Source: Apostichopus japonicus (lineage: Eukaryota; Echinodermata; Holothuroidea; Aspidochirotida; Stichopodidae). Taken from it: 64,000 nt of DNA. The DNA is taken from contig NC_092569.1 of assembly GCF_037975245.1 (NCBI RefSeq), positions 15,807,501-15,871,500 of the forward strand. Direction: 5' to 3'. The number at the start of each line of letters is the position of its first letter. Positions within the stretch are counted from its first letter, which is position 1. The translations under genes were made by a program, and so were the position numbers. Positions 2,767 to 64,000 of this stretch are shown piece by piece. Below the pieces are notes generated by a model. It saw only the letters and a list, made by a program, of their open reading frames with translations. It had not been told where the DNA came from and made no database searches.

Positions 2767-5700
2767 GAAACATTCATAACAGTACCGTTACCATAGTTTC
2801 AAGTGTTTGGGAATGGGTCAAATTGCAATGGTACGAAACTTGACCCAGCCACTCGAACTTTTTTCACCACTCCGCCAGCCCACGTCCCAGACGAAAAGTC
2901 TGGTGACGCTACTGCTAAAGTATAAACATATTTTACGGAAGTAAATCCTTAAAAGAGAAAAAAAACGTCCATATTTTATTATTATACCTTTCATAATAAT
3001 TTTCAGTTAAATATAATGCGTTCTTAAACTAAAAAAGAAGAACATTGAATTAGAAGACATTTGTACGACTGTAAACCTTAACGGTGTCTACAATGGAAGC
3101 ATCGAAGAAATTATTTTCTCTCGCTATGATTATTATCAAGTTAAATAAGTCTGACCAAACGGAGCGTGGTTGAATTGACTTTATGGAAAACAACCTAAGA
3201 AAACATTAAACATTCACTAAAGAATTTCTTGTTTGAAAGTGAATGACAACTTGAAAAATCAGAGCAAAGACATAACGGAGTTCAGTCTGTTTATTGTAGC
3301 ACATTTTGTAAAGGTTTATCCTTCGAACTTGGTAATTGTATTTGCTTGTTTTTTTTTTTGGTAGAAACATTATTTTATTGACATGTTTAAAATTGGGTAC
3401 GTATTATTCAAGATATGACGCATCGCCCCCAATTGTTTTAAAATAAATATAAAAACATAATATCTCAAATGCTCATTGTATAACGAGGGAACGAATCAAG
3501 AACTCACTGAATATCTGTCTTACATATTGCGAACATCCGGCAGTATCAGAAATATAGCGTACATCCCTGTTTTGTAACTACAAATAGCGGCTCCTTTTTT
3601 AATTGACGAGGTGTTAGCCAGTAAATGATATCCGCTTATTGAACGTTCGTTATATTTGGTATAATATTGGCACAAATATGGTCAATATTTTCTACGCTGG
3701 TATTAATATAGAAGGAAATATATGTCTATACTTATCTGAAATTTCAAATCAATTTAAAAATAACATATCGTTTTATTATATTCTTCATTCAAAATATTAA
3801 GCGCGTTCCACCTATTCATCAGTAATAACTATTCGTTGCGAATGATAGTAGCGGTGTAAGAAATTCCAGCAATATTTAATTACCATACAGAGCACACATT
3901 GCGCTTGTCTTGGTTGACACAGGTTATTACACGATGCGTTGTTACATTTCTCGTATTTTTTTTATTACATTTGCGTCAACATGTTATTACATAACTCGTT
4001 AAATGCGTTTTGCGCCAAAAATTAGTACACGTTCAGTTATGATTTTTTTTTTTTTGCGGCGAAACATATCTGGTTAACACTACATTTTGCGTCAATTATT
4101 ACATTTTTCAATGACGATATTCAATATATGATGACTGATGTACAGACTAAAGGGTATGTTGATAATTATGGGTATAGTTAATAATGTCACGGGTATACAG
4201 CATTCTTGCATAAGTTACCTCATAGGAATAGCAGTATCATCAAGCAGTGTGCTCATGCAATTAACATTCCAAACTCGGTGCAAACTATTATTCATTGTCA
4301 TGTATAACATAAAGCCCATGAAAGGACGTCCCATTATATTCCACTTACTTTATTATCTCAACTGTCAATAATTATGTTGTTTAACTATACTTCAGTAATA
4401 CATACCGTACCGGAAAATTACGACCATAACATTCAAACAGACCGATTTTATACATAGTCTGCTTACTTCAAAGTTAGATACATGGGAAAAACAACGTAGT
4501 ATCAGTCGTTAGCTTGAATATAACAGCAACGCACTGTGTTACGTACGGTGGTTATCACATGCTGGATTGTTTCTAAAACGATCAAGAATGTCGACATTTT
4601 CTCTGTATTCACATTTGATAATATCTAAGATGAAATATTATATCCATTTTCGATACCGCTGTACTAGTGGAGTGATCAGCTTCATGATGAACCATTTTGC
4701 TTGTGTTGTCATAAGTAAGGATTTCTTCATCATGAAGATAGAAATTGTATGATTCTTAAAATGCTATACAACCATAAATAAACTATATATATAATTTAAA
4801 AAAAAACGAAGATGAAACACGATCCCGTGTTCTGCTATATTGTACTGAAGTTAACACAGGCTGATCTCATTTGGTGTTAAAATATGACTTCATATTAACA
4901 GACGTCATTGTCAAATATATCTTCCTTTTAACAGAGGGCGCCAACGAACTTCAGTATTATGGTAGAATATCTAATATGGCTGAAAACTGTCCTTAATGAT
5001 GTCGGCGTACCACAACCATGATGGTTCCATTGACTTTATCCCGCGGTAGACCCGAAATAGAACTTGCGTTATCCCATTTTAATATTTTACCCATTCCGCA
5101 GGACCAATGCACAGGTTGATGCACCTACTTCTGTTCACTTTATTGGATTCTGACTGGAGCAATTTGCTAATGAGCGGTAATATTTTTAGGGGTATGCCGG
5201 TTTCCAGCTTGTATACAACATCTGTCTATAGTAATTTCCCACAACTTTGTAGGACGAGTTTTCGTCATCGCCTGGCCAGACTGGACAGATCAAGATTTAC
5301 ATTCCATAAATCAGGAAGGTCTGCATATGTTCTTTCTTATTTAACCTGGTAGCCAGATCGCAAGTTAGACTTTTGCGAATGAAATAGAAAATGTATCAAA
5401 GACTTTTTCCTTGGACTTCTTCACCCCCCCCCCCCCTCCAATTCAATTCAAGGTATGGTACGTGTACACAAAGAATAGTTAGCTTTTATAGTGTTGGGAA
5501 TTTTCATGTTTGTCATAAGAAAACAGTTTTTACATAGACTATTACTTTCTCGTTGTGCTTCAATAACGCACATTTAACACAACCCGTTTATCTAGATACC
5601 GTAAAGATTTGGAGTCTAGACATTAATATCTACGAAGTTAAATTACCACTGTTATTGTTCGGAAATGTTCATTTGTTTACGCTAGAAATTCTTTCCGTTT

Positions 5701-10300: not shown

Positions 10301-13300
10301 ATTAATGTTCACAAACATATTTTGCCCACATTTGCGTTAATGTAAGAAAGTAAAATTCGAAATTATTTTCTATTAAGTTTTTATCGCTTACATAGTTTTG
10401 CGAAAAAATATATTCTATTTTCATCTGTTTTCCTTGAATGTATAGCTAATATATTTGCAATTTCTGGTGCAATTAAGAAAACAAGAATACTACACAAATA
10501 GATTGAGTTTAAATTCTAGCCAATGTTTAGTCACACACCTCCACTCACCTCCACACCCACCCCCCCCCCCAAAAAAAGAATTGTGTATGGGATATATTTC
10601 CAGTCAATTCTGATAGTTTTTATACTCATTTCATCAAGTTGGGTACACATTTCAAAATTAAAATTTAATAATTGTATCGCTGTAATGGATGAAGTTATCA
10701 AACATCCTGACATAGGCAAGAATGTTTGTGAGCAATCATTTAGATTATTAATCATTATAAAATTGTGTTTTCCAACATTCTTAATTTGCCTGCTCATGAT
10801 TATAAGATAAATGAGATTGCAAAAAAGCCACACGTTCTTTACAAACAGTTACAATAAATAAACATCTCATTTTGACATATATTTTTGATGACTCTTCTTC
10901 TCATTAAAAGAGTATTCATCGGAGAAGTTTACCTTCAACTGCAGAGGACACTCAAAGTAAGATATTTCACATTAACTGCTTTGTTTTTCATTCCATCTAC
11001 ATATATAAAAAAATACTTACCGATAATAAATGACTTTTGTTATTTCCAAGATAACTTTCTGTTTCTGTTTCTGTAATATTGACCGTATCTGTGTGAGACA
11101 GCATTTAGTATGTTACTTTCGATGACTTATAACAATGCGAAAATTACAACCTCTAATACCGTGAACAAGACAAGAAATTTTGTGACAAATGTTTTATAAT
11201 GTAAATAATATTGACCCCACCCACCGAAAAATATAATAAAGCAAAAAAGGGTTAGGGAATAGGACAGAGAGGGAGAGGAAGGAATGCAACGTATTCTAAC
11301 ACAGGAAATGGTATATGTACCAATTTTGATGTTAGGTTTTCATGTTACTTTTCAAGTTCCATCTTTCCTGTTGCGGTTTAAGTTATCTCCTAAAATCACA
11401 GAGAATTGCCGATTTCTTGCAGGATTTTCTTTAACGGTCGAGTAATGTATACGATGACAAGGTTTTGTTACAAATTGAACACAAAGCATGCATATTATAT
11501 AAGTTTTTAATGATTTTATCTCTTTATTACAGTGGCCCATTACTTCTTTTATCAACGTTCTGAATATCCAAAGGACTGCCGAGACGTTCAAAGTCAATGT
11601 GCTACGTCCAACTCTAGCGGAGTATACCTTATCAAGCCAGATGGATTTGAAGATCCATTTGAGGTGTACCGCAACAACAACGTTGGTGGAGGAGACTGGA
11701 CGGTACGTCTAAATAAAAATGTTGAAGTTATATTTCAAACTTGATAAAGCCTTTCGTTAGCATGTAGGTATTATGACTTGAAAATGTGTAGGGGTAATAA
11801 ATAAGTCGCATCCTTCACTCAGCAACGTCGAAATTGGGAAATAGATATTCTTTTCGGAGACGATCTTTCTTAATATTTACATAAATGGATAACACTAATT
11901 GTCCAATTTCCTACTCGAGTACAATGGAGAGAGTGTTTTAAGTCGTGATAGTGTACTCAATCTGTTTTTCTTCTGTTATAGGTCATACAACGCCGCGAAA
12001 GCGGAGCTGTTAATTTCAATAGGAGTTGGTCACAGTATCAAGATGGATTTGGTTTCCTCTCAACTGAGTTTTGGCTCGGCAATGAAAAGTTATCATATTT
12101 GACGAACCAAGCAGACTACGAACTTCGTGTGGATATAGAATTATCTAATGGAGCCTCTTTTTATACAACATACAAAGGTTTTCGTATCACTGATGAATGG
12201 GGGCAATATAAGGTTACACATATTGGACCACTCGAAAGTAATGCACGTAAGTAAAAAACTTTGTACAAAAGGAAAATCGAAACGTTAATAATAATACAAC
12301 CATAACTTTAATAATAATAATAATAATTATAATAATGATATTCCTTGTTTAATATAGCGCTTTTTACCAGCAGTAGGTTTCAAAGGTTTACAGACGATAT
12401 GTTACCCCTGATCAATGATAACCTGTTCCATAGACAATTCCTCTTCACACATATACATCTAAGTCGTTTTCTACAAACTGCATAATCTTTCAAATTAATG
12501 TTATTCCTTCTTATTTTACTATTTAACGGTATAATTAAGAAACGATCGTTTTTCATGGCAGAGGTATTCGCAAATATTCTTGTCAAAATTGCATGTATTT
12601 TCTTGATCTTACCAACTGACAGCTACATTGCTCTCTACATGTCCTACGAACATGATCTACGAAACATGTACTTGCCAAGCAACATGTGAAGATCCCAAAG
12701 GACAATCTGGTTGTAACAGTGACTGTTTGGGTAGTGAGGGTTGCACCTGTCCAGCTGGTTTCTTGATGCAAGGGAGTGACTGCATCAGTGCGAGTGAATG
12801 CGGTTGTTTTGTGGCAGAGGCCAACTTGGTTATACCAGTGAGTATATATATGACTGATTTCAATATCACGTGACTATGCAAACGAAACAGAAACGAAACT
12901 TAGGCTAAATGTCGTTGTGATCACACCGAGTATCAGAAAGAAAAATCAAATGTATAATAAATACTATTTGTTTATATGTTTATCAATTTAATTCTAGAAT
13001 GGAGAAACGTATGTTAACGATTACTGCACACAAAAGTGTACTTGTAATAATAACCGACTGATCTGTGAAGACTACAGATGCAGTACCGATGCTGTTTGTG
13101 ATGTCAGGAATGAAATACGACAGTGTTATTGTGATGAGGGATATGAAGGTGACGGTGAAACTTGTGAATCCTTGTATACAGACTGTCAGGATGTTTATGA
13201 CGCTGGACAAAGGCAAGATGGCATATATACAATCATGCCTACTGGGTGGCCTGGTTTACCATTCGACGTACATTGTAAAATGGAAAACGGCGGAGGATGG

Positions 13301-15555
13301 ACCGTAAGTCTTCATTGAAACTCTATGAATGTTTCAAGTATGTTTCCGTGTTTTTCATATATGTATTAGTCTATTGTAAACGGTTATGAAAGTACGAGTT
13401 CATGTTTTCGGTTTGGTTGCACGTTTATATTCCTTAGTGTTGATTCAGTATATTAAATATACTTGAGTAAATGAAAATGGTGATAATCCTTAAAATTAAC
13501 CTCCTCTTAAGAAAAAAAAAACAACGCTAAGAAATGTCTTAAGTTTATCAGACTGAAATATTATTCTCTAGATATATAGTTGTGGGGTATTCTTAAATTA
13601 ACTGTGTCTGTTAGCATGCTTCAACGACTCCCATTATTTTATTTCTTTCATTATTCTTACCCGCTAACCTTCCAGGTGTTTCAACGTCGTAACGATGGAT
13701 CTTCTAGCTTTGATCAAAACTGGGCTGCGTACAAAGACGGGTTTGGTGACAGCAGGAACTTATGGCTAGGAAATGAAAAGCTTCATTACTTGACTAACCA
13801 AAGAAACTACAAGCTTCGTTTTGACATCACTACTTCTAGTGGATCGGCTAAATATGCTGAGTATACAGAATTTCAAGTCGAGTCTGAAAGCAGCAAGTAC
13901 AGAATGAATAAACTGGGGACTCACAGTGGAAATACAGGTTTGTTGCATGTGTGATATTTGCGCCTTATCTTGGAAAATAGGTCAAGTTAAAGTTACTAGT
14001 GTGTTCACAATAAACTTCATGAGATAATGTTCGTCACGGTTTCAACACATCTTGATGTTAAATGATAACTCCAAAGTATGCTGTAAGTACACTGGATCAG
14101 AAACCCTTACAAAGATGGTTTGGTGTAACACCCCACACCTTTCACAAGCCACACCACCGTGTCTACGGTTGTATATACGAGATTAGTAAAAAGTCGATGA
14201 TCCATTTCTGGGTATGTATGATAAAATTCACGCATTAATTAGAACAAAAAACAAATAGAAACAGAACAAAAATGAATAAATAATACCACGCATATTGAAC
14301 CATCTTAATTAGTTGCAATTGACGTGATGAACCATCCTTACATTCGCCAGTTTTGGTGTTGTAATATTGGAAGAGCAAAGAAGGTTTTGTCCCGAACGGG
14401 ATTTGAGCCAGTGATGTGAACAATTGCGAAAAAAGTATCGTCCCATCTGGACCCGTTACTTTAAAGAACAGTACAGTGTTAGATATTTACCGTATCATCG
14501 TATCAGCTGGATACCGCTGGTATCATTACAACATATTAAAGTAGTCTGACTAGCCGATGAAAGAGAATATATGCTGAATGAGCATGCACCAGTCTAAGAA
14601 CAGGAAATGTCATGGAAGAGAAATACGACCATATATATTCATAGAACTATTAACAGAGAATAAAGGTTTCCAGTAAACACATACTACTAACAGAATAATT
14701 TTTTTTACAAGATCTGTGAAACAATTATACCAAGAAGAGCCACACACCGTGAGGACAGAGACAACCCTAGACAAAGATACAATTACAATGAGAAAATAAT
14801 AGCTAAAAACTAGTCAATGGAAAGCCTAGGATTTAGTTCTCATTTACAATCAAACACAATATTTACTAATTTAAACATAATATTTAATATCATTAGACAA
14901 TTAGTTCCTATATACAAGCCTAGTTTTCATATTAAACATCATCCATTTAAATTCAAATCAATGGTCAACTCCATTGAGAAGTAAACCTGATTAAAATAAA
15001 GAGCAATAATGAATAAATCAGCTTATAAAGTATTTATAATGATCACGGAATTATCCCATTATGAATGTATTCTGAATCTCTTTCAAAGTGAATCCTCACC
15101 CCCCCCCCTTCTCAGTATACTGTAAAACTTATTTTATATCCCATCAAAAGTGTCCAATATAACAGGATACTTACGCTATTGTTTAATGATCAAGTATTAA
15201 CCACTGATGTTTCTTGCTGTTTTCCAACACAGGTCATGAACTCTCGTATAACAAAGGAAAACAATTCAGCACGCATGACCGAGACAATGACGCATGCGAT
15301 ACCTCCAACTGCGCAGAGAAGCACAAAAGCGGCTGGTGGCACTCGAATACTTGGTGCTCTTGTTATAGTTATAGCTATTGCTATTATTTCCAATACAGCA
15401 GCAGCTGCAAGGCAGTTTGTACGGGTGACAACCTCAATGGTGTCTACAATGGTGGCGACGGAGAAATGATCTTCTCTTACAATTATTATTATTATCATTA
15501 TAGTGTATTCTGCAGCCCCCAGTTCGTTGAAATGAAAATTCGACCATCCTCTTGA
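7381..15555 (+). CDS. Gene A: secreted protein with two fibrinogen domains, TIL/TILa and EGF-like modules (8 exons)
   Basis: Exons: 7381-7461 signal peptide; 10911-10956 linker; 11533-11702 and 11982-12246 first FReD; 12623-12837 TIL; 12998-13303 TILa, EGF-like and FReD-2 start; 13676-13937; 15233-15555 to TGA. All introns are GT-AG and the phases close to 1668 nt (555 residues). The signal peptide is MELSVAVRALLTFLCTTTIA. FReD-1 runs from YPKDCRDV through EFWLGNEKLSYLT to HIGPLESNA and then stops; it lacks the calcium and pocket exon. TIL runs from STCPTNMIYETC to CISASEC; TILa from NGETYVND to ICEDYRC; the EGF-like end is GYEGDGETC. FReD-2 is complete: calcium loop FSTHDRDND, NCA, GWWH, NLNGVY and FVEMKIRPSS. 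Between GWWH and NLNG lies a Cys/Ser/Tyr-rich insertion. FReD-1 has Arg where B and C have Cys (FEVYRNNN versus FEVYCNNN) and Asp for Gly before its first Trp. FReD lectins bind acetylated sugars or other microbial ligands; that role is inferred here. Confidence 0.88.
7462..10910 (+). other. Intron 1 of gene A
   Basis: 3.4 kb, AT-rich, no exon recognised. It holds one copy of the roughly 1.2-kb block (about 8040-9240) that is repeated twice in B and three times in C, two copies of a 20-bp word (aactttgatgttac) near 8130-8165, and a poly-C run at 10560. Open frames at 9706-10193 and 10523-10833 are not conserved in B or C. Confidence 0.6.
12310..12450 (-). mobile_element. Short SINE-like insertion in intron 4 of gene A
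   Basis: Genes B and C read directly from caaccataacttt to acatctaagtcg; gene A has about 140 extra bases between these points. The insert starts with a (TAA)n run and continues with ttccttgtttaatatagcgc. A simple-repeat tail next to a short unique body suggests the 3' end of a retroposed element on the minus strand. Family not identified; no tRNA-like head seen. Confidence 0.5.
13938..15232 (+). other. Intron 7 of gene A
   Basis: 1.3 kb between the last two coding exons. It aligns along its length with the same intron in B (31339-32614), and its first part aligns with 63269-64000 in D; in C it is shortened to 751 bases (50174-50924). A poly-C tract lies near 15100. No exon or RNA gene seen. 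Confidence 0.6.
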
Positions 15556-26700: not shown

Positions 26701-29700
26701 CAATATTCAGAACTTTGAATTTGTTAGTTTAAACTAATAATATCTCTGTATCTATGTTTATCTCGTTTAAATTTGTCCTTCTAGTTGTCTTACAAAGTAC
26801 TTAGAAGTTCCAACTACCGCTCTTCCATGATTTTGAAGATTAATGCACAAGTATAGAGTTTATGTCCTTAAACTATGGAGCAAGTGGTTTTTAACTTGAC
26901 AATAAGACCCTTAAGTACAATATTTTGATATTCTTGGAATTTGAAAAGTTTCTGCATGGGAACTATACCATAGAGATTGTTGTCGACGATTTCGCATTAT
27001 GACGTTTACAACAATTGCATCCTTAATTCTTTTTCCTGTTTGTGTTATGTAAGGTTAACTCGGGTTGTAACAAAGATAAACCAGTATCGGATATTGCCAG
27101 GTACTTGCACATGTGTTAATTTTTAACGCTTTAGAATATTTGCAATTTAAAACCTTTTTTATTGTATTTACTTCGGCCAATATCTCATGTAAACCTATCG
27201 CATGCAATCGGTGCAATTCATACCCGTGCCGTATTTCAATGTCAACCAGTAGTGTATTTTCAGTTTTAAGAAAGGTTTTACTTAATAAATGCATTATTCG
27301 GTGTATACAATTTTCTGTCATATACTCAATTCCATTTCCAAAAGACACCAAGTGTTTGTTGTGTTTGTTTTACACATTAACTCACGTCGTATACTTTATT
27401 TATTGAAATAATTGTTTTGTTTAATCAAGCTAGAAAAGACTTGCAATTATCTTATAAGCGGTAGGCTCAAGTTAACATTTAACTCAAAATCCCTTCGTTA
27501 GTATTCAAAAAGATTAACTCTTTCACAATTAGGCTTTTCTTAATTGCAATCGTCATTAATTTATCACCTCTGACAACGCTGCGATAGTACCGTTGACCAT
27601 CTCTGAGTATATAGTGTAAGAAGTTTTTTCTATCAATTTGAGGATCTTTATCAATACAAAAAGCATTACTTAATTTCACTTTATGCAACCAAATAAAACG
27701 ATACAATTTTGATAACATAAACTTTCATTGTAAAATATAGCGGTATAATTATATTGCGACGTTGTCCACATTGCAATGTAGTGAATTCAACATTTAAAGA
27801 TTATTTGTCATGTTTTCTTCATACACCAAAGTTACTACTTCTAGAAAAATACAGACAAATCTCGATCTCAATTATATGCTCTGATGACTGTTAATATAAA
27901 AATTAATGTTCACAAACATATTTTGCTCACATTTTCGTTAATGTCAGAAAGTAAAATTCGAAATTCTTCAATCTCTAATAAGTTTTCATCGCTTACATAG
28001 TTTTGCGAAAAATATATTCTATTTTCATCTGTGTTCCTTGAATGTATAGCTAATATATTTGCAAATATTTCTGGTGCAATTAAGAAAACAAGAATACTAC
28101 ACTAATAGATTGAGTTTAAATTCTAGCCAATGTTTAGTCAAACAGCCACCTCCACTTTCCTCCACCCCCCCCCCCCCCAAATGATATATGGGATATATTT
28201 CCAGTCAATTCTGATGGTTTTTATACTCATTTCATCAAGTTGGGTACACATTTCAAAAATTAAAATTTAATAATTGTATCGCTGTAATGGATGAAGTTAT
28301 GAAACATCCTGACATAGGCAAGAATGTTTGTGAACAACCATTTAGATTATTAATCATTATGAAATTGCCTTTTCCAACATTCTTAATTTGCCTGTATATT
28401 ATTATTAGATAAATGAGATTGAAAAAGGGCAATAGTCCTTTACAAACAGTTGCAATAAATAAACATCACATATTGACATATATTTTTGATGACTCTTCTT
28501 CTCATTAAAAGAGTATTCATCGGAGAAGTTCACCTTCAACTACAGAGGACACTCAAAGTAAGATATTTCACCTTAACTGCTTTGTTTTTCATTCCATCTA
28601 TATATAAAAAAAATGTAATTAACCAAAATAAATGACTTTGTTATTTCCAAGATAACTTTTTGTTTTTGTTTCTGTTTCATTGACCGTATCTGGGTGAGAC
28701 AGCATTTAGTATGTTACTTTCGACGACTTACAACGATGCAAAAATTACAACCTTTTATACCGTGAACAAGACAAGAAATGTTGTGACAAATGTTTTAAAA
28801 TGTAAATAATATTGACTCCACCCCGCCCCGAAAAAAATAATAAAGCAAAAAATAGTTAGGGAATAGGACAGAGAGGGAGAGAAAGCAATGCACCGTATTC
28901 TAACACGAAAATAATATATGTACAAACTTTGACGTTAGGTTTCCATGTAACTTTTCAAGTTCCATCTTTCCTGTTGCGGTTTTAGCTATATCCTAAAATC
29001 ACATAGAATTGTCAATTTCTTGCAGGATTTTCTTTAACGGTGAAGTATTGTATACGGTGACTAGTTTTTGTAAAAAAAATTGAACACAAAGCATGTATAT
29101 TATATAAGTTTTTAATGTTTTTATATTTTTATTACAGTGGCCCATTACTTCTTTTATCAACGTTCTGAATATCCAAAGGACTGCCGAGACGTTCAAAGTC
29201 AATGTGCTACGTCCAACTCTAGCGGAGTATACATTATCAAGCCAGATGGATTTGAAGAACCATTTGAGGTGTACTGCAACAACAACGTTGGTGGAGGAGG
29301 CTGGACGGTATGTCTTAATGGAAATGTTGAAGTTATATTTTAAACGTGACAAAGCTTTTCGTTAGCATGTATGTATTATGACATGAAAATGTGTAGGGGT
29401 AATAAATAAGTCGTATCCTCCACTCAGCAACGAAATTTGGAAATAGCTATAATTTTCTTAGACGATCTTTCCTAATAGTTACATAAATGGATAACATAAA
29501 TTGTCCATTTCCTACTCGAGTACAATTGAGAGAATGTTTTTAATTGGTGATAGTGTACTCAATCTCTTCTGTTATAGGTCATACAACGCCGCGAAAACGG
29601 AGCTGTTAACTTCAATAGGAGTTGGTCACAGTATCAAGATGGATTTGGTTTCCTCTCAACTGAGTTTTGGCTCGGCAATGACAAGTTATCATATTTGACG

Positions 29701-32700
29701 AACCAAGCAGTCTACGAACTTCGTATGGATATAGAATTATCTAACGGAACTTCTTTCTATACAACATACAAAGGTTTTGGTATCACTGATGAATGGGGGC
29801 AATATAAGGTTACGCATATTGGACCACTCGAAAGTAATGCACGTAAGTAATACAATTAATAAAAAGTAAACACGTATCGTTAATAATAATACAACCATAA
29901 CTTTTTTCTGTACATCTAAGTCGTTTTCTACAATCTGCAAAACTTTAAATGTAATTCCTTGTTATTTTACTATTTAACTGTCAAAATTGGATGTATTTTC
30001 TTGGTCTTACCAACTGACAGCTACATTTTCATCTACATGTCCAATGAACATGATCTACGGAACATGTACTTGCCAAGTAACATGTGAAGATCCCGACGGA
30101 CAATCTGGTTGTAATAATGACTGTTTTGGTACTGAGGGCTGTACTTGTCCAGCTGGTTTCTTAATGCAAGGGAGTGACTGTATCAGTGCGAGTGAATGCG
30201 GGTGTTTTGTGGCAGAGGCCAACCTGGTTATACCAGTGAGTATCTGCACGAATTTCACTTCAATATCACATGACTATGTAAATAGAACAGAAATTTAAGC
30301 TAACTGACCATGCGTTAACACTTCTCACGACACCCCCCCCCCCCCAAATTTTTAATGAATTACATTTTTATATTTTCATTAATTAACTTGTAGAGTGGGC
30401 AAACATACGTTAACGATGACTGCACGCAAAAGTGTTCTTGTAACGATAACCAACTGACCTGTGCAGCCTACAGCTGTAGTACCAATGCTGTGTGTGATGT
30501 CAGAGATGGAGTACGACAGTGTTATTGTAATGAGGGATATGACGGTGACGGTGAAAATTGTCCACCCTCGGAGTCCTATAGAGACTGTCAGGATGTTTAT
30601 GACGCTGACCATAGGCAAGATGGCGTATATACAATCATGCCTACTGGATGGCCTGGTTTACCATTCGACGTAAATTGTAAAATGGAAAACGGCGGAGGAT
30701 GGACCGTAAGTCTTCATTGAAACACTTTGAATTTTTCGAGTATGTTTCTGTGAATTTTTTGTACGTGTTAGTCTATTGTAAACGCTAATGGAAGTACGAG
30801 TTTATGTTATCGGTTTGGTTGCACTTTAATATTCCTTACTATGGATTCAGTTTATTTAAAGTACTTGAATAAATGATAACGGTGACAACCCTTAAAATTA
30901 ACCTCCTCCTAAGAAAACAAAAACAACGCTAAGAAATGTCTTAAGTATATCAGACTGAAATATCATCCTATAGATATATAGTCGTGCGGTATTCTGAGTT
31001 TGAGTGTGTCTATCACCATGCAACACTACTCCCATTATAACCTTTCTATCATTATTCTTACCCGCTATCCTTCCAGGTGATTCAACGTCGCAACGATGGC
31101 TCTTCTAGCTTTGATCAAAACTGGGCTGCGTACAAAAACGGGTTTGGTGACAGCCGGAACTTTTGGTTAGGAAATGAAAAGCTTCATTACTTGACGAACC
31201 AAAGAAACTACAAGCTTCGCTTTGATATCACGACTTCTAGTGGATCGGCTAAATATGCTGAGTATACAGAATTTCAAATCGAGTCTGAAAGCAGCAACTA
31301 CACAATGAATAAACTGGGCACTCACAGTGGAACTACAGGTTTGTTGCATGTGTGATATTTGAGCCTTGCCTTAGAAAATAGGTGAAGTTAAAGTTACTAG
31401 TTTGTTAACAATAAACTTTATGAGAAAATGCTAGTAACGGTTTCAACGCATCTTGATGTTAAATAATAATTCTAAAATATGTTCTAAGTACATTGGATCA
31501 GAAACCCTTACAAAGAGGGTTTGGTGTAACACCCCACCCCCTTTCACAAGTCACACCACCGTTTCTACGGTTGTATAGACGAGATATTTAAAAAGCCGAT
31601 GATCAATTTCTGGGTACGTATAATAAAATGCACGCATTAATTAGAACAAAACAGAAACACAAACAAAACAAAAATGAATAGATAATACCACGAATATTGA
31701 ACCATCCTAATTAGTTGCAATTGACGTGAAGAACCATCATTACATTCGCCAGTTTAGGTGTTTTAATATTGGAAGAGCAAAGAAGGTTTGTCCCGAACAG
31801 GATTTGAGCCAGTGATCTGAACAATTGCGAAAAAAATTATCGTCCCATCTGGACCCGTTACTTTAAAGAACAGTATAGCGTTAGATAGTTACCGTATCAC
31901 CGTATCAATTGGATACCGTTGGTATCATTTACAAAATATTGAAGTAGTCTGACTAGCTGATGAAAGAGAATATCTGCTGAATGAGCAAGAACCAGCCTAA
32001 GAACAGGAAATGTCATGGAAGAGAAATACGACCATATATATTCATAGAACCATTAACAGAGAATGAAGGTTTCCAGTAAACACATACTACTAACATAATA
32101 ATGTTTCTTACAAGATCTATGAAATAATTATACCAAGAAGAGCCACACACCCTGTTTGCAGACAAATACAACCTTAGACATAGATGCAATTACAATGAGA
32201 GAAGCCCAGGATTTAGAACTCATTTACAATCAAACACAATTATTAATTTAATCATAATATTTAATATCATTAGACAATAAGTTCTTCTTAGACAAGCCAA
32301 GTTTTCATATTAAAAATTAATCATTTAAATTCAAATCAATGGTCACCTCTATTGAGAAGTAAACCTGATTAAAATAAAGAGCAATAAAGAATAAATCAAC
32401 TCATGAAGTATCTATGATGATCACGGAAATATCCCATTAAAAATGAATTCTGAATCTCTTTCAATGTGAATCCTCACCCTCCCCCCCCCCTTCCCAGTAT
32501 ACTGTAAAACTTATGTTATGTCCCAACAAAAGTGTGCAATATAACAGGTTATTTACACTGTTGTTTAATGACCAAGTATTAACCATTGATTGTTCTTACT
32601 GTTTTCCTTCACAGGTTATAAACTCTATTATAGCAAAGGAAAACAATTCAGCACGCATGACCGAGACAATGACGCCTGCGATACCTTCAACTGCGCAGAG

Positions 32701-32934
32701 ACGCACAAAAGCGGCTGGTGGCACTTTGATTATTATTGCTCCTATTGTTATAGTTATGGCTATTGTTATTATTTCCAATTAAGCAGCAGCTGCCAGTCAT
32801 ATTGTACGCTTGACAACCTCAATGGTGTCTACAATGGTGTCAACGGAGAAATGATCTTCTCTGAGTTTTATTCTCATTATCAATACTACTGCAGCCTCCA
32901 GTTCGTTGAAATGAAAATTCGGCCATCCTCTTGA
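23740..32934 (+). CDS. Gene B: secreted protein with two fibrinogen domains, TIL/TILa and EGF-like modules (8 exons)
   Basis: Exons: 23740-23820; 28512-28557; 29138-29307; 29578-29842; 30021-30235; 30394-30705; 31077-31338; 32615-32934. Total 1671 nt, 556 residues, no internal stop, all introns GT-AG. The signal peptide is MEPSVTVRALFAFLCTTTIA. The linker reads SIHRRSSPSTTEDTQ and joins M-AHYFFYQRSEYPKDC. FReD-1 keeps the Cys lost in gene A and again ends after HIGPLESNA. The following intron is only 178 bases, so no third FReD-1 exon can be hidden there. The TIL, TILa and EGF-like parts match gene A; the EGF end reads GYDGDGENCPPSES, two residues longer than in A. FReD-2 carries FSTHDRDND and GWWH, then a Tyr/Cys-rich loop that differs from A (begins FDYYCSYCYSYG), then NLNGVYNG and FVEMKIRPSS. 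The start codon lies 26 bases after the hAT target duplication, so the leader probably contains the element. Confidence 0.88.
23821..28511 (+). other. Intron 1 of gene B
   Basis: 4.7 kb. It contains two tandem copies of the block present once in gene A: gacatttgaacagttata begins at 24455 and again at 25661 (period about 1206), and atacggataactg recurs at about the same spacing. A poly-C run lies near 28165. No exon recognised other than the linker that ends the intron. Confidence 0.65.
24414..26826. repeat. Two tandem copies of a 1.2-kb intron block (gene B)
   Basis: First copy about 24414-25620, second about 25620-26826. The junction lies near ccatgattttgattaatatt. The copies differ by scattered substitutions and small gaps, including the length of a (TAA)n run (short near 24733, longer near 25941). 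Confidence 0.75.
31339..32614 (+). other. Intron 7 of gene B
   Basis: 1.28 kb, aligned with intron 7 of gene A throughout. A poly-C tract lies at about 32474-32488. Nothing coding seen. Confidence 0.6.
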
Positions 32935-34810
<1,876 letters not shown>

Positions 34811-35580: not shown

Positions 35581-35712
35581 GAAGACATTCGTACGACTGA
35601 AAACCTCAACGCTGTGTTCAATGGATGCAACGAAGAAAAGATTTCCTCTCGCTATTATTATTATTACTGGAACGTCCTATTCGTTGAGATGCAAATAAAA
35701 CCTTACCATTGA
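35581..35712 (+). pseudogene. Relic of a last FReD exon (unit C)
   Basis: The frame reads EDIRTTENLNAVFNGCNEEK, then ISSRYYYYYWN and VLFVEMQIKPYH to a stop. It matches the end of the final FReD exon of genes A to C (NLNGVYNG, Tyr-rich stretch, FVEMKIRPSS) and the relic at 3053-3148. It is better preserved at the C-terminal end than the unit A relic. The calcium-site part upstream is not recognisable. Open reading continues upstream to 35371, but that stretch has no FReD character. No companion exons were found nearby. Confidence 0.7.
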
Positions 35713-46800: not shown

Positions 46801-49800
46801 AAAAACTGTCTCACATAGACACGGTCAATGAAACAGATATAAAAACAGAAAGTTATCTTGGAAATAACAAAACTCATTTATATTGGTAAATTACACGTTT
46901 GTGTAGATGGAACGACAATACAAAGCAGTTAAGGTGAAAAACCTTACTTTAAGTGTCATCTGTAGTTGAAGATAAACTTCTCCGATGAATACTCTACTAA
47001 TGAGAAGAAGAGTCATCAAAAATATAAGTCAATGTGTCATTTTGAAATTGTTTTTCCAACATTCTAAATTTGCCTGTACATGATTATTAGATACATGAGA
47101 TTGAGAAAATCAACAGTTCTTTACAAACAGTTAAAAAAAAAGACCTATTTGACATATATTTTTGATGACTCTTCGTCTCATTAATGAAGAATTCATTTAT
47201 TGTAACTGTTTGTAAAGAACTATTGATTTTTTTCAATCTCATGTATCAAATAATCATGTACAGACAAATAAGGATTGTTGGAAAATAAACAATTTCAAAA
47301 TGACACATTGACATATATTTTTGATGACTCTTCTTCTCATTAATAGATTATTCATCGGAGAAGTTCAACTACAGTGGACACTCAAAGTAAGATATTTCAC
47401 CTTAACTGCTTTGTTTTTCATTCCATCTATATAAGAAAAATGTAATTCACCAAATTAAATGACTTTTGTTATTTCCAAGATAACTTTCTGTTTTTGTTTC
47501 ATTGACCGTATCTGTGTGAGACAGCAATTAGTATGTTACTTTCGACGACTTACAACAATCCAAACCTTACAACCTTTAATATTGTAAAAAAGACAAGAAA
47601 TTGTTGACAAATGTTTTATAATGTATGTAACATCGATCCCAACCCCGAAAAAAAATAAAGCAAACAATGGTTAGGGAAAAGGACAGAGAGGGAGAGAAAT
47701 GAATGCAACGTGTTCTAACACAGGAAATGATATATGTACCAAATTTGATGTGGTTTTTCAAGTTCCATCTTTCCTGCTGCGGTCTTAGCTATCTCCTAAA
47801 ATCTCAGAGAATTGTCAATTTCTTGGCAGGATTTTCTTTCACGGCCAAGTATTGTATACGTCGACAAGTTTTTGTTACAAATTGAACACAAATCATGCAT
47901 ATTATATAATTTGTTAATGTTTTGATCCCTTTATTACAGTGGATCATTACTTCTTTTATCAACGTTCTGAATATCCAAAGGACTGCCGAGACGTCCAAAG
48001 TCAGTGTTCTACGTCCAACTCTAGCGGAGTATACATTATCAAGCCAGATGGATTTGAAGAACCATTTGAGGTGTACTGCAACAACGACGTCGGTGGAGGA
48101 GGCTGGACGGTACGTCTAAATGGAAATGTTGATGTTATATTTTAAACGTGATAAAGCCTTTTGCTAGCATGTAGGTCTAATGACTTGAAAATGTGTAAGG
48201 GTAATCAGGAAGTCGCATCCCCACTCAGTAACGTTGAAATTGGGAAATAGCTATTATTTTCGGAGACGATCTTTCCTAATAGTTACATAAATAGATAACA
48301 TAAATTGTACATTTCCCACTCGAGTACAACCGAGAGAGTGTATTTGACTGATGATAGTGTTCCCAGTCTGTTTCTCTTCTGTTATATATAGGTCATACAA
48401 CGCCGCGATAGCGGTGCTGTTAATTTCAATAGGAGTTGGTCTCAGTATCAATATGGATTTGGTTTTCTCTCAACTGAGTTTTGGATCGGCAATGAAAAGT
48501 TATCATATTTGACGAACCAAGCAGACTACGAAGTTCGTGTGGACATGGAATTATCTAATGGAGCTTCTTTCTACACAACATACAAAGGTTTTCATATCAC
48601 TGATGAATGGGGGCAATATAAGGTTACACATATTGGACCACTCGAAAGTAATGCACGTAAGTTAAAAACTTAATAAATAGTAAATACGTTAATAATAATA
48701 CAACCATAACTTTATTCATATACATCTAAGTCGTTTTCTACAATTTGCATACATTTTCAATGTAATTCCTTCTTATTTTACTATTTAACTGTAAAATTGA
48801 GGAACGATCATATTTCATGGCAGAGGTGTTTGCAATCATTTTTGCCAAAATCGGATGTATTTTTCTTGGTATTACCAACTGACAGCTACGTTGCCATCTA
48901 CATGTCCAACGAACATGATCTACGGAACATGTACTTGTCAAGCAACATGTGAAGATCCTGACGGAAAATCTGGTTGTAAAAGTGACTGTTTGGGTAGTGA
49001 GGGCTGTACCTGTCCACCTGGTTTCTTTATGCAAGGGAGTGACTGTATCAGTGCGATTGAATGCGGGTGTTTTGTAGCAGAGGTCATCTTGATTTTACCA
49101 GTGAGTATCTGCACGAATTTCATTTCAATATCACATGGCTATAGAAATGAAACAGAAATCTAAGCTAACTGACCTTGTTTTAACACAAAGTCTCAAAGTC
49201 TGAGAAAACAAACCCACAATGTTTAACAAATAGCATTTTTATATTTTCATTAAATAACTTGTAGAGTGGGCAAACATACGTTAACGATGACTGCACACAA
49301 CATTGTTCTTGTAACAATAACCAACTGATCTGTGAAGACTACGTCTGTAATACTAATGCTGTGTGTGATGTCAGGAATGGAGTACGACAGTGTTATTGTA
49401 ATGAGGGATTTGAAGGTGACGGTGAAAATTGTCCACCCTCAGTGTCCTATAGAGACTGCCAGGATGTTTATGACGCTGGCCATAGGCAAGATGGCGTATA
49501 TACAATCATGCCTACTGGATGGCCTGGTTTACCATTCGACGTGCATTGTAAAATGGAAAACGGTGGAGGATGGACCGTAAGTCTCGATTGAAACTATACG
49601 AATATTACAAATATGATTCTGTGGGTTATTATAATTTAGTTTATTGCAGACGGTTATGGAAGTAAGAGTTTTTGTTTTCAGTTTTGTTGCATTTTTCTTT
49701 CAATTCTTACCTGTGATTTATTGTATTAGATTTATTCTAATAGATGCGAAGGGTGGCATTCCTAAAGTTTGCCCTTCCCCTAAAGTGAGAAAAAAAAACA

Positions 49801-51229
49801 AAGTAAATATGTTGTCGGGCTCTATTTCTTAAATTAAGCTTGTCTGTTGGAATGCTTCAGCAACTTTCATCATAATCTATCTTTCAATATTGTTACCCGC
49901 TATATTTTCAGGTGTTTCAACGTCGTACCGATGACTCTACTAATTTCTACCAAAACTGGAATATGTACAAAGACGGGTTTGGTCACAGCGGGAACTTGTG
50001 GCTAGGAAATGAAAAGCTTCATTACTTGACAAACCAGAGAAACTACAAGCTTCGATATGACATCACTACTTCTAGTGGATCTGCTACATATGCTGAATAC
50101 ACAGAGTTTCAAATCGAGTCTGAAATCAACAACTACAGAATGAATAAACTAGGCACTCACAGTGGAGATACAGGTTTGTACATGCTTTGTTATTTGAACC
50201 TTGCAATGGATAATACTTCAACATAAAGTTACTAGTATGTTCACAACACACGTCATGGTTTCAGCACATCTTGATGTACACTGGATCTGAAAACCTGCAA
50301 AGAGTTTGGTGTAACAACCCCCCACCCCCTCTCTCCCATTCTTTCACACTTTTTTTGTACGGTTGTATAAACGAAGTAATTATATAGTTTGGTATCCAAT
50401 TCAGGGTATGTATGATAATTGAAAAGCAATAATTACAATATTAAAACCAATGGAAGCAACTAAACGTGATGAAATAATACCAACCATATTCGAACGTCTT
50501 AATTAATTGCAAGGAATGCGTACGCTATCGTTACATCTGCGAGTTTTTGTTCTATAATATTGAAAGAGCATAGTTATCTGAACAATTGAAAAAAAACTCG
50601 TCCCACATGAACTCGTTACTTTAAAAAGACCGAAAAGTCTTGATGTCCTATCAGCAAGATTGATTTGTATGTTAATATAAATTAGCTAATTGAAATCCAC
50701 TTCACCTCCAAGTCTAATTAAAATCAAGAAAAATAATAATTCAGCACATTAAATATACAACGATAACACAATTCCAATGTGACCCACCCCTCCCCCTTAC
50801 TTTCCAGAATATTGTAAAACGCATTTTATGTCCCAACAAAAGTATGCAATATATCAAGATACTCACGCTATTGTTTAATGACCAAGTATTAACTGCTGAC
50901 TGTTCTTGTTGTTTTTCTTTACAGGTCATTATCTCTCTTCTAGCCGAGGAAAACAGTTCAGCACGCATGACCGAGACAATGACGCATGCGGTAACTTCAA
51001 CTGCGCACAGCTACACAGAAGCGGTTGGTGGCACTATGATCACTCTTGCTCTTATTGCTGGGGTTCTAACTATTGCTCAAATGCCCAATACAGCAGCAGA
51101 TGCAAGTCAAAGTGTACTTATTACAACCTGAACGGTGTCTACAACGGAGGCAACGGGGAAATGATCTACTCTTCTCTTAGTATCTGCAATCCCCATTTCG
51201 TGGAGATGAAAATTCGTCCATCTTCTTGA
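40830..51229 (+). CDS. Gene C: secreted protein with two fibrinogen domains, TIL/TILa and EGF-like modules (8 exons)
   Basis: Exons: 40830-40910; 47347-47386; 47940-48109; 48392-48656; 48886-49100; 49265-49576; 49912-50173; 50925-51229. Total 1650 nt, 549 residues, no internal stop, GT-AG introns. The signal peptide is MELSVAVRALFAFLCTTTIA. The linker is six bases shorter than in A and B, in frame (ends RRSSTTVDTQ), and joins M-DHYFFYQRSEYPKDC. FReD-1 is complete over its two exons and again lacks the third. The TIL exon ends EVILILP and is the most changed of the three. FReD-2 has FSTHDRDND, NCA and GWWH, a distinct loop (YDHSCSYCWGSNYC), then NLNGVYNG and a shorter tail before FVEMKIRPSS. 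Intron 1 is 6.4 kb and contains three repeat blocks and the left arm of a large palindrome; exons 2 to 4 and part of 5 lie in the right arm. A splice across this structure must be assumed; transcript data would settle it. Confidence 0.82.
41520..44880. repeat. Three tandem copies of the 1.2-kb intron block (gene C)
   Basis: The word around catttgaacagttata recurs at 41549, 42554 (as gatatttgaacagttata) and 43752, and atacggataactg recurs with it. The first copy is about 200 bases shorter than the others. It resembles gene A most, including an extra 20-bp minisatellite (three aactttgatgttac words at 41588-41637; two in A, none in B). Confidence 0.75.
45303..46993 (-). pseudogene. Inverted partial copy of exons 2-5 of the gene family
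   Basis: On the minus strand: linker 46993-46948, first FReD exons 46375-46206 and 45928-45664, then a TIL exon starting at 45429 and cut at about 45303 by the palindrome boundary. The splice sites are kept. Both FReD exons are open (DHYFFYQRSEYPKDC; FGFLSTEFWIGNEK). The linker has an in-frame stop (GAT GAC ACT TAA). Some FReD residues differ from all three genes (Arg to Cys in YEVCVDIEL). There is no signal exon upstream on this strand and no second FReD, so it cannot make a family protein. It lies inside intron 1 of gene C, antisense to that gene's own exons. Confidence 0.85.
45303..49013. repeat. Large palindrome: 1.8-kb inverted repeat with 69-bp spacer
   Basis: Left arm about 45303-47133, spacer 47134-47202, right arm about 47203-49013. 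At the centre the left arm ends ttacaaacagtta and the right arm starts taactgtttgtaaag. At the outer ends caggtaca (45303) mirrors tgtacctg (ending about 49013). The arms hold the same exons in opposite orientation with scattered differences. The left arm replaces about 1.2 kb of ordinary intron 1 that A and B keep. Either a real inverted duplication or an assembly fold-back; the divergence between the arms argues against a simple artefact. Confidence 0.88.
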
Positions 51230-57783: not shown

Positions 57784-57807
57784 TAATAATAATGATGATG
57801 ATTATGG

Positions 57808-57846
<39 letters not shown>

Positions 57847-57862
57847 CGACGACGACGACGAC

Positions 57863-57940
<78 letters not shown>

Positions 57941-59387: not shown

Positions 59388-62300
59388 ATGGAGAGAAATA
59401 TTTTTTTTCAGCTTTTCAATTTGGCACTAATCCTCATCGATATGACGGATGCAGGAAGTAAGTATATATTTTTACATGATAATAAGAGTTACGGATTCCA
59501 TTTTCTTTCTATTTACCAATAACAATATGTTGAGTCTTTTGAAGTTCCCATGGGGTTGTCAGGCTGTCTTGGTTTAGGGGTTTGGGAATACAGAAAGTAT
59601 ATTCTGTTCTGTTTTAAATTGTGTTTCTGTTCGGTTAACTATGTTGACTTCCAATTTTCTATATCACATCATTTTTAGACATAATGCAGCAGGTTTGAAG
59701 TTTTATAAAAGGCTTATTTTGGCAACCTTGTGAATTTAAAGCAACGTGAGCAAGGCAACTTTCAGCAAATTTCGAGCAAGGGTTCTTCAAGAATAATTCA
59801 CTTTCATGGGTACTCGAGCTACTTGAATATTAACATCATTACCCCTCCCTACATATAGCTAGATTATAGAACAGTCTAGATTACAGAACTTTGATGGTAA
59901 AATATAAACCATCGGCAGGCTTACCTATATTCTATTAACTTCTGCATGTCTAATTGGAGTTTTCTTGTGATATTATAGTCACACCGGTTGGTATCTAGGA
60001 ATATGTTGTTTATGGTTCCTAGGGTTATTGATATATGACAATCGTATGTTACTTAATGACCGAGTTCTGAGTGTTCTATCACCCTTTCATCTATAAGATA
60101 TTTAATACCCAGTAAACTGTAGTTCGCATATGATATTGGTAAGTTAAAGTTTAAAGTTGATTTATTTTAATCCTAGACCCAATGCTAAGTCTAAGGTTAG
60201 GATAACTGTTATCGCGCAAACAGTTAGGCAGACTATCTAAAAAATTGATTAATCTGCTGTTAGCGGTCAATGGGGGTGTCGCTATGTACGGGAGAATGTA
60301 TACACCAGTCATCCAAAGGTAATATCAACACATATCGCCACAAAAGTCAACCTTTTGTTTTTCTTCAAATGTTTGCCCACTTCAAATATTCCCCAACTTC
60401 ATTCCGATCTTGGTTTAATTTGCGCAGTCGTTACACAGTGCATTATTTGTAATGGACTGACTGATTACGTTATACATGTCGTCTTAACTTAAGTCTAGTT
60501 CTAAGTATTTTTTATCAGGGATGCAATGTCACAAAACTGCCAAATGGATTAGTTGTCTAAAGTTATACCACATAACTGTCCATCATACCTAGAAAATTTC
60601 CTCACTTTCAGTACAGCCAGTTTAACATGTACAGAAAACTATATGGACTGGGATATGCAGTACGAGAACTGCTACCAGAAACTTAATTTATGTTTTGACG
60701 ATTTCAATATTGGTTATCTATACCATCCATTTTATTTAACCTTTATACATTTACTTCTTTTGTAAATTTTGCAAAATTTCCATATAAAGGAAGCCACTGT
60801 TTACCTTCAACTTGTAAAAGTAAGTAAAAAGTAAACAGAACACAGAATGTTGTCGAATTATTATTTACAAATTATTATTTGTCACAAAGTTGATGTATTT
60901 CCTGTGTCTGTGATTTAGGTGGTTTTCAAACTTGACGTCTTCCTAGCTTGTTTAATTTTTCATTTAAACCAAAAATACTAATGCAAAATACCATTGTTTC
61001 AGAGACAGCATTTAATATCGGTATGTGTTGGTTCGTCATATAAATTGACAGTATTATCTCTTTATGCTCTGAGTGCATGATTTCACGAGTTAAACTTTAT
61101 ATAACAAATTTCGGTCACCAAATACATTTCATCCTTCTCACCTCAATTTGAAAGTATTCTTTCAATCATTGTAATTTTTTTGGGAATATAAATTATAGGT
61201 CAATGTGATATTACCCCTTTAATGATGTATGATCTTACAATTTTCGCATTCATAGCAACATTTTGTCTATATAGACAGCCTTTTTAAATATCTGCTTATC
61301 TTTATTTTGGTCTGTAAACATAACATAATAACGAAAAGAAGACCACTAGATTAGTAAATGATAATACACGGACATATTATTATCTGGTTAGAGGGGAATG
61401 CGTTATCAATTTAGCTGCTAAATTAATTGTGTTGTTAATTTTCATTTTCATTTTAAGATTTTCCACTATCATTCATATGTTCGATTCATATGTCTGGTTA
61501 ATCATATTCTTATTTTTCACCATCTTAAACCACTTTCATTTGAAAGCATGATGTGTCTATAGTCAAAAATGTAGTGCAAACTAACCAGAATGAGGGCTTA
61601 GTTCAACACAGTACTATTTATATTTAATTGAACCGACTTAACAGTATTGATATTGCTACAATATTGTTCATAAACATCATTCCTATCCTATTTTAGGTAA
61701 GACAATGCAAAAATCAGAGGAACCAACTACTGCAGTCACTACTGAACCACTAGGCACGACTCTAGGTAAGTCCCGTATCATATCAAGCGCCCTGCTGATA
61801 TCATGTGATAATAGAATAAATCACATTAATTTTGCATTAATGTGCATTTTGATTTAATTTACATGCTCTCTCTAAAGTCGCAATCAGCTTTCCGCCGTTA
61901 TTAGGATGTTACTACATGGTAAAAATGAAACAAAACATAATAATCATGATATTTCAAAACTAAACTGCTCTTATCTCTATGCAGGTTCTTCGATATATAC
62001 GTGTCCTCCGAACATGATCTATGGAAACTGCACTTGTGAAGCAACATGTGAAGATCCCAAAGGAGAGTCTGCTTGTAACAGTACCTGTTTAGGTAGCACG
62101 GGCTGTATCTGCAAAGCTGGATTAATGCTGAATGGAAGTGACTGTATCAGTGCGAGTAAATGCAGCTGTTTCGTTACAGAGGCCGAGTTGGTTATATCGG
62201 TGAGTGCTGTGACATCTATTTAAATGTAAGATGACATTTCTTATGGATATTTGAGCACAGAATTAAATTTTATCTGACAACTATTTTTTTCTTCCAACCT

Positions 62301-64000
62301 AAAATTTTACATATGATCTGTTTTAGAATGGAAAAACATACGTTAACGATAACTGCACCCAGAAGTGTTCCTGTAGCAATAACCGACTGATCTGTGAAGG
62401 CTACAGATGTGATACCAATGCTGTGTGTGATGTCGAGAATGAAGTACGAAAGTGTTATTGTTAATGATGGATACGAAGGTGACGGTGAAACTCGCGAGTT
62501 ATTGTATACAGACTGTCAGGAAGTTTATGACGCTGGACAAAGACAAGATGGGGTTTATACAATCATGCCTACTGGATGGCCTGGTTTACCATTCAACGTA
62601 TCTTGCAAAATGGAAAACAACGGAGGATGGACTGTAAGTCTTGAATGAAGCAATATCAATATTTCAAGTATGCTTTTGTGAGTTTTTGTTGATTAAGTAT
62701 ATTGTAGACGGTAATGCACAAGTCAAAGTCCAAGATTCTGTTTTCGGTTTGGTTGCACTTTAATAATACCTCACCAGGTATTCAGTGTATCGAAATTGCT
62801 TTAGCGGAAGCAATGTGTGACAATCCTAAAATTGCCCACCCCCTAAAGTAAACAAAAACAAAGAAAAGTCTTACATATGTCTACTGAAATAGTATTCTAT
62901 CAATATATATTCGTGCGTTGTGTCTTAAATTAAGTTTGTCTGCTAGCATGCTTCACGACTCTCATCATTATCTTTCTTTTATTATATTTACTTGCTATCT
63001 TTTCAGGTGTTTCAACGTCGTACTGATGGCTCTACGAGTTTTGATCAAAACTGGGCTGCGTACAAGGACGGGTTTGGTGACAGCAGGAACTTATGGCTAG
63101 GAAATGAAAAGCTTCATTACTTGACGAACCAAAGAAACTACAAGCTTCGCTTTGACATCACTACTTCTAGTGGATCGGCTAAATATGCTGAGTATACAGA
63201 ATTTCAAATCGAGTCTGAAAGTACCAACTACACAATGAATAAACTGGGCAATCACAGTGGAAATACAGGTTTGTTACATGTTTGATATTAGAGCCTTGCC
63301 TTGGATATTAGGTCAAGTTAAAGTTCCTAGTATGTTCACAATAAACTTCATGCGAAAATGGTCGCCGAGGTTTCAACACATCTTGATATTAAATATTACC
63401 TACAAAATCTGTAAAAAGTACAGAAACCCTTACAAAGAAGGTTTGATGAAACACCCCCCTCCCCATCCTCACCCTCTTTTCAAAATTCACGCACAAAATT
63501 TCTACGGTTGTATATACGAGATAATAATCAAGTTTATAACTAATGTGAAGAACCATTTTTACATTCACCAGTTTTGGTGTTGTAATATTTGATGCGCAAA
63601 GAAGGTTTTGTCGCGGACAGGATTTGAGTAAGTGATCTTCACAATGACAAAAAAATATCGTCCCATCTGGACCCGTTACTTTAAAGAAACAGTACAGTGT
63701 TAGATATTATTGTATCATCTTATCAATTGGATACCGGTGGTATCATTTACAAAATATTAAAGTAGTCTGACAAGCCGATGAAAAAGAATATGTGCGGAAT
63801 GAGCAAGCACCAGTCTAAGGACATGACATATCATGGAAGAAAAATACGACCACATATCTTCACAGAACCATTAACAGAGAACGAAGGTTTCCAGTAAACG
63901 CATACTACTAACAGAATAATGTTTCTTACAAGATCTGTGAAACAATTATACGAAGAAGTGCCACACACCTTGTTTGAAGACAAATACAACCTAAGAAATA
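59388..64000 (+). CDS. Gene D: related secreted TIL/EGF/fibrinogen-domain gene, cut by window end, frame broken
   Basis: Exons seen: 59388-59457 signal peptide (MERNIFFQLFNLALILIDM, phase 1 end); 61697-61765 Thr-rich linker (EEPTTAVTTEPLGTTL); 61985-62199 TIL (YTCPPNMIYGNCTC to CISASKC); 62327-62633 TILa, EGF-like and FReD start; 63007-63268 FReD middle (WLGNEKLHYLTNQRNYKLRF). The last exon should lie about 1.3 kb further, outside the window. No first-FReD exons were found between the linker and TIL. The fourth exon is 307 bases, against 306 in gene A: an extra T at 62461-62462 turns tgt-aat-gat into tgt-taa. In the same exon the last EGF Cys is Arg (GDGETRELLYTDC). The FReD exon is nearly identical to gene A. 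Either a young pseudogene or a base error in the assembly; the exon 1 call is less certain than the rest. Confidence 0.7.
59458..61696 (+). other. Intron 1 of gene D (2.2 kb)
   Basis: No family exon recognised. A Cys-containing open stretch follows ttcctcactttcag at 60612, but its open frame does not fit the phase left by exon 1. Confidence 0.45.
63269..64000 (+). other. Start of the last intron of gene D
   Basis: Aligns well with the first part of intron 7 in genes A and B (shared words include atcgtcccatctggacccgt), including a poly-C rich segment near 63452. No exon before the window end. Confidence 0.65.

Follow-up and report, generated by a model that had tools for sequence, protein, structure and literature searches.

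A copy-variable, cysteine-rich loop at the predicted binding face of the terminal FReD in tandemly duplicated animal genes

Results

Tandem FReD genes in the window

The window, by which we mean the whole 64-kb stretch of DNA analysed (GC 34%, no N), contains long repeated units in self-comparison and carries three paralogues, A, B, and C, of a gene for a lectin-like protein with a fibrinogen-related domain (FReD), in tandem on the + strand. Their last FReD exons start at 15233, 32615, and 50925 (+), a spacing of ~17.4 and 18.3 kb, and a fourth copy, gene D, is truncated by the window end. The exon order in A, B, and C is half-FReD exon 2; TIL; TILa with EGF-like and the FReD start; FReD exon 2; and the last FReD exon. 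Joined, the five exons form a single open frame of 457 (A), 458 (B), and 453 (C) codons including the stop. In each gene AG precedes every exon and GT follows the first four, from which we infer the splicing.

Gene A
11982..12246, + strand, upstream half-FReD exon 2, phase-matched to the TIL exon
12623..12837, + strand, TIL exon
12998..13303, + strand, exon with TILa, EGF-like, and FReD start
13676..13937, + strand, FReD exon 2 (Pfam Fibrinogen_C 2e-25)
15233..15555, + strand, last exon, FReD P subdomain, from an AG acceptor to a TGA end (Pfam Fibrinogen_C 3.1e-07)
Gene B
29578..29842, + strand, upstream half-FReD exon 2 (with a match to exon 1 at 29164-29310)
30021..30235, + strand, TIL exon
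30394..30705, + strand, exon with TILa, EGF-like, and FReD start
31077..31338, + strand, FReD exon 2
32615..32934, + strand, last FReD exon
Gene C
48392..48656, + strand, upstream half-FReD exon 2
48886..49100, + strand, TIL exon
49265..49576, + strand, exon with TILa, EGF-like, and FReD start
49912..50173, + strand, FReD exon 2
50925..51229, + strand, last FReD exon (20.5 bits alone)
Gene D
61985..63268, + strand, TIL, TILa/EGF/FReD start (with a frame shift), and FReD exon 2; the last exon would fall beyond the window end

Nine stretches were scanned with Pfam, in which the cut-off for Fibrinogen_C (PF00147) is 22 bits. FReD exon 2 scored 90.4 bits in A and 88.2 bits in D; the last exon scored 30.9 bits in A and 32.9 bits in B, and that of C taken alone fell under the cut-off. 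By tblastn, FReD exon 2 of B is 92% identical to that of A, and that of C is 80% identical to that of B. Pfam supports TILa in A and B and TIL in D, TIL was recognised in A, B, and C by tblastn, and the EGF_3 match lay under its cut-off. No IgSF match was found in the nine stretches; the modules seen ahead of the FReD are TIL, TILa, and EGF-like. The canonical C7, C37, C160, and C196 and the terminal FVEMKIRPSS are invariant in A, B, and C, as is the P-subdomain motif DRDND, a predicted calcium site. We conclude that A, B, and C are tandem-duplicated genes, from an animal to judge by their domains and introns, with predicted multi-domain products (half-FReD, TIL, TILa, EGF-like, FReD), which are probably extracellular and would be secreted.

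The junction is in phase 1 on both sides in all three genes: half-FReD exon 2 stops at C before GTAAGT, and the TIL exon opens directly after CAG. Between these two exons we detected no P-subdomain exon of the upstream half-FReD in A, B, or C. An upstream FReD that lacks its P-subdomain exon thus appears to join in phase to the TIL-TILa-EGF-FReD series, an arrangement newly recognised here. In the first half-FReD exon of gene A a conserved Cys is lost (VYRNNN, where B has VYCNNN and C has VYCNND), and GGGDW stands in place of GGGGW.

The rest of the window holds several degraded or repetitive elements. Exon 1 of gene D (62327-62633) is one base longer than that of gene A and its reading frame switches, so gene D may be a pseudogene or contain a sequence error. 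Between B and C, 45300-47043 carries partial half-FReD and TIL exons in inverted orientation, the TIL match being broken by an in-frame stop. The last FReD exon has left two relics, at 3059-3136 and 35579-35703; their matches begin at the loop end or just beyond, and the tail of the relic at 35579-35703 is Tyr-rich. A (TAA) array of ~78 units, 99% matching, occupies 34281-34513, 3′ of gene B. A GATGAC-type repeat array at 57794-58071, whose long open frames have many D, H, or M residues, is probably not a gene.

The loop, the tail, and their cysteines

In the last exon of each paralogue an insertion follows GWWH and runs up to a canonical Cys, as placed by alignment to tenascin-R and FIBCD1. 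A second variable segment, the tail, immediately precedes FVEMKIRPSS.

15295..15297, + strand, gene A, extra Cys directly after the calcium motif (DRDNDAC)
15343..15417, + strand, gene A loop, 25 codons, SNTWCSCYSYSYCYYFQYSSSCKAV
15478..15522, + strand, gene A variable tail, containing an extra Cys and a run of TAT
32677..32679, + strand, gene B, extra Cys directly after the calcium motif
32725..32802, + strand, gene B loop, 26 codons, FDYYCSYCYSYGYCYYFQLSSSCQSY
32863..32901, + strand, gene B variable tail
50987..50989, + strand, gene C, extra Cys directly after the calcium motif
51035..51112, + strand, gene C loop, 26 codons, YDHSCSYCWGSNYCSNAQYSSRCKSK
51173..51196, + strand, gene C variable tail, short form

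An earlier note on this DNA had claimed that about 30 residues follow GWWH where ordinary FReDs have only a few, and both halves of the claim held: the translations match, the WW-NLNG spacing is 30 (A), 31 (B), and 31 (C) residues, and it is 7 in FIBCD1 (WWYRNCHTSNLNG) and in tenascin-R (WWYKNCHRTNLNG). The insertion relative to these two proteins is therefore 23-24 residues. Among solved sequences, the best profile match ends at profile position 170-178, which is the loop start, in all 60 of those listed from 68 matched. Five of these alignments were examined. The alignments of FIBCD1, from this profile search, and of tenascin-R, from a separate comparison, lie on both sides of the site, and neither protein has such an insertion.

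Each terminal FReD of A, B, and C contains ten Cys, four canonical and six extra, the latter comprising four in the loop, one after DRDND, and one in the tail. (The last of the five Cys between WW and NLNG is canonical, so the loop adds four.) The Cys columns of loop and tail are invariant, 5/5 across A, B, and C, with a hypergeometric chance of 3e-4. Extra disulfides had been proposed; the six extra Cys, an even number, agree with this, and the number and constancy of the Cys suggest that the loop is probably held by such bonds.

Divergence among the copies

We compared the copies column by column; amino-acid pair comparisons drop gap columns, the three-copy column count scores gaps as variable, and the single codon gap in A was positioned to hold Cys in register. 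Across A, B, and C, 31/41 columns of loop and tail are variable, vs 17/67 elsewhere in the exon (Fisher P = 4e-7). The same excess appears in each pair: A and B differ at 16/38 amino acids in loop and tail vs 9/67 elsewhere in the exon (P = 0.0016), A and C at 20/33 vs 14/67 (P = 0.0001), and B and C at 21/34 vs 14/67 (P = 0.0001). Thus, the claim that loop and tail differ far more than their flanks was confirmed, while the companion claim that the flanks are almost identical fits A vs B (9/67) and fits C less well (14/67 vs either).

At the nucleotide level, dN for loop and tail was 0.31, 0.44, and 0.44 in the three pairs vs 0.076, 0.101, and 0.094 in the 326-328 other codons, so replacement change there is 4-5 times that elsewhere. 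The ratio of dN in loop and tail to dS in the rest was 1.57, 1.37, and 1.78 (Fisher P = 0.12, 0.25, and 0.035), significant in one of three pairs. dN/dS was 1.33, 0.80, and 0.62 for loop and tail together, and 0.91, 0.69, and 0.61 within the loop.

For the A-B pair, intron 3 and downstream DNA (254/2538 differences) served as a yardstick. Introns 1 (50/151, 0.331) and 2 (56/362, 0.155), with A-B divergence above the yardstick, were left out. Against this yardstick, loop and tail show an excess both of replacement differences (25/97, P = 1e-5) and of total mismatches (24/113, P = 7e-4), and the loop alone shows an excess of replacements (13/64, P = 0.019). Synonymous differences in loop and tail (3/17) show no excess (P = 0.24), with few sites, and A-B synonymous change is so scarce that a mutation hotspot is still compatible with these counts. 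In a window-by-window scan, 258/3539 windows elsewhere equal the span from loop to tail in divergence; they start only in the 100-base bins 12700, 12800, 12900, and 13300, which surround introns 1-2 and the mosaic breakpoint described below. We rejected a deaminase-hotspot idea, for which the signal was too weak (WRC+GYW per 100 bases: loop 21.2, 5′ flank 16.4, middle 11.1, tail 13.0, end 2.2).

The excess of loop and tail over the flanks is firm. The excess replacement change that the earlier note had looked for is present, at 4-5 times that elsewhere; selection for replacement is unproven, as the ratio to exon dS is significant in one of three pairs. Positive selection on loop and tail is plausible, though not proven, from these three copies.

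Mosaic history

At 886 informative sites exactly two among A, B, and C agree. Left of A position 13270 the AB/AC/BC counts are 91/73/104, and right of it they are 433/104/81; B groups with C just left of this point, and A groups with B to the right.

13200..13340, no strand, mosaic breakpoint, best near 13270 (limits are an estimate)

The one-break log-likelihood gain was 54, and 300 shuffles reached no more than 8.4. A further break to the left, at ~12262, gave a gain of 10.7, a value with no shuffle reference, with AB/AC/BC counts of 37/40/76 between the breaks. The paralogues are mosaics, which is newly recognised here, and the breakpoint separates 5′ modules of one history from FReD exons 2-3 of another. 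Such a pattern would be expected from gene conversion or unequal crossing-over; a 3′ half of C taken over from a more distant copy would fit just as well.

Predicted position on the FReD fold

According to the available sections of PMC3908420, Y405, H415, Y431, A432, and W443 make up the acetyl pocket (S1) in FIBCD1, together with the main-chain nitrogens of C414 and H415, which a cis-peptide, N413-C414, positions; TL5A and L-/M-ficolin have a Tyr at the W443 position. Contacts of the extended pocket are N413, and H396 with R412, in the sections available of PMC10825690. We transferred FIBCD1 numbering onto the profile alignment by counting from C401 and C414. The loop is predicted to map between W410 and C414, with the insertion at R412-N413, in extended S1; the extra Cys155 aligns one residue past the position of H396, and the W443 wall lines up with the variable tail. 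The two variable segments, with 20 mostly conserved residues between them, would thus come together at one site. AlphaFold2, run on the gene A last exon alone with B and C as the alignment, returned pLDDT 35.4 and pTM 0.20 and did not give the loop position; because this model is unusable, the position rests on homology, which places the loop at the predicted binding face.

The pocket itself is altered. All three copies carry H, T, M, and I at the places of FIBCD1 Y405, H415, Y431, and A432, respectively, and the W443 place is V (A), Y (B), and S (C) on our reading of the profile alignment. Four of the five S1 side chains are thus changed in all three copies (two of these tentatively), and the fifth is Tyr in gene B; the C-terminal alignment is weak (second match 7.1 bits), which makes the Y431, A432, and W443 placements tentative. 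With most S1 side chains changed, canonical N-acetyl binding by A, B, and C appears unlikely, and no ligand can be named. The earlier note had set the insertion beside the predicted ligand pocket: the FIBCD1 alignment agrees with that location, and a working acetyl pocket beneath the loop is, for the same reason, unlikely.

Discussion

We propose that loop and tail form a diversified recognition surface in the terminal FReD, which we regard as the best explanation and hold with a probability of roughly one half. The 25-26 residue loop would replace the short turn that bears the extended S1 contacts (FIBCD1 R412-N413) and, with the variable tail at the S1 wall, could build a new Tyr-, Ser-, and Cys-rich binding surface where the acetyl pocket had been, while the FReD scaffold and the calcium motif are retained. 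Point change, whole-codon indels, and segment exchange among paralogues would give every copy its own loop, and with a loop of their own the copies probably bind different ligands. A bolder version, which we consider unlikely, holds that this FReD family swapped its acetyl pocket for a Cys-knotted, Tyr/Ser-rich hypervariable loop acting as a germline-diversified CDR, with loops spread by segment exchange and possibly differing among individuals. Bovine ultralong CDR H3 likewise places a long, Tyr-rich, Cys-knotted loop at a binding site, and is diversified somatically; its fold is unrelated, and the comparison is an analogy only.

The pattern might also reflect relaxed constraint, with a surface loop that has little function beyond folding, Cys kept for stability, and the remaining positions drifting approximately neutrally. 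That none of the within-loop dN/dS values exceeds 1, and that dN in loop and tail is not significantly above exon dS in two of three pairs, is what such drift predicts. However, A-B replacement in loop and tail (and in the loop alone) tops that in intron 3 and downstream DNA, the variability sits in both segments of a single predicted site, and the open frame and the loop Cys are kept in three copies; we judge this reading possible but unlikely. Adhesive or matrix proteins offer a different role for a Tyr/Ser/Cys-rich loop, namely cross-linking or protein contacts in matrix or mucus rather than contact with foreign ligands. TIL, TILa, and EGF-like modules, all present here, occur widely in proteins of the extracellular matrix and of mucus, and the solved sequence relatives include tenascins, angiopoietins, and MFAP4. 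A structural role does not, however, explain divergence among copies in just these two segments, and we think it improbable.

Mutation alone was considered as well, with loop and tail as decaying triplet repeats (TAT/TGT/AGT) varied by slippage and free of selection. Tandem repeats are indeed present at 15482-15501 (ATT × 6.7) and 32743-32770 (TATTGT × 4.7), length differences come in whole codons, and the triplet-complexity of the A tail and B loop falls in the top 6-7% of the window background. Yet neither the loops of A and C nor the tails of B and C are low-complexity outliers, A-B loop differences are mostly substitutions (15, with one codon gap), and slippage would not spare the Cys. We consider this reading improbable, and we reject slippage as the sole cause because only the A tail and B loop stand out from background; it can account for part of the change in length but not for the full pattern.

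FIBCD1, ficolins, and tachylectin-5A have in common with A, B, and C the FReD scaffold, the calcium-motif region, and the canonical Cys pair (NC ... CxxxNLNG), and the Tyr of gene B at the W443 place is the residue of TL5A and L-/M-ficolin; they differ in lacking the 23-24 residue insertion and the six extra Cys, and in their S1 residues, most of which are changed in the three copies. Among solved chains, the FReDs of tenascin-R/C and angiopoietin-1 match best in sequence. Angiopoietin-1, like A, B, and C, has a Cys just after the DND motif, although its second nearby Cys is missing from A, B, and C, and one tenascin-C sequence has His at the Y405 place, as they do. In the alignments examined, tenascin-R/C and angiopoietin-1 show no loop insertion.

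Biomphalaria FREPs are, like A, B, and C, an expanded and diversified invertebrate FReD family, with a fibrinogen domain that is relatively conserved compared with the IgSF domains, according to the available sections of PMC7588048; in A, B, and C, by contrast, the variation lies inside the FReD, and the nine scanned stretches gave no IgSF match. In Apostichopus japonicus a cluster of 21 tandem-duplicated FREP genes has been reported (PMC5638244); it shares tandem duplication with A, B, and C, and the accessible part of that paper describes no loop, Cys, or TIL architecture. As a guess, such a cluster in sea cucumbers makes it possible that the window comes from an echinoderm. FReD insertions as such are not new, since the part of PMC2429915 open to view reports that one fly FReD has a short loop insertion. 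Our literature search found no cysteine-loop insertion in a FReD in the listed titles and opening lines of abstracts, with subscription papers mostly outside its scope, and the accessible text of PMC13228809 contains nothing on the loop. Profile scans with FReD-start patterns confirmed 0/39 and 0/32 candidate stretches in prokaryote and virus contig collections, respectively; given these collections, and patterns taken from the FReD start rather than the loop, the scans say nothing on animals.

FReDs are a widespread animal lectin fold. If our proposal is true, the FReD itself can scaffold diversified recognition, with its sugar pocket replaced by a Cys-held, copy-variable loop, in contrast to the snail FREPs, a well-studied diversified family in which, in what could be consulted of PMC7588048, the FReD is conserved relative to the IgSF domains outside it.
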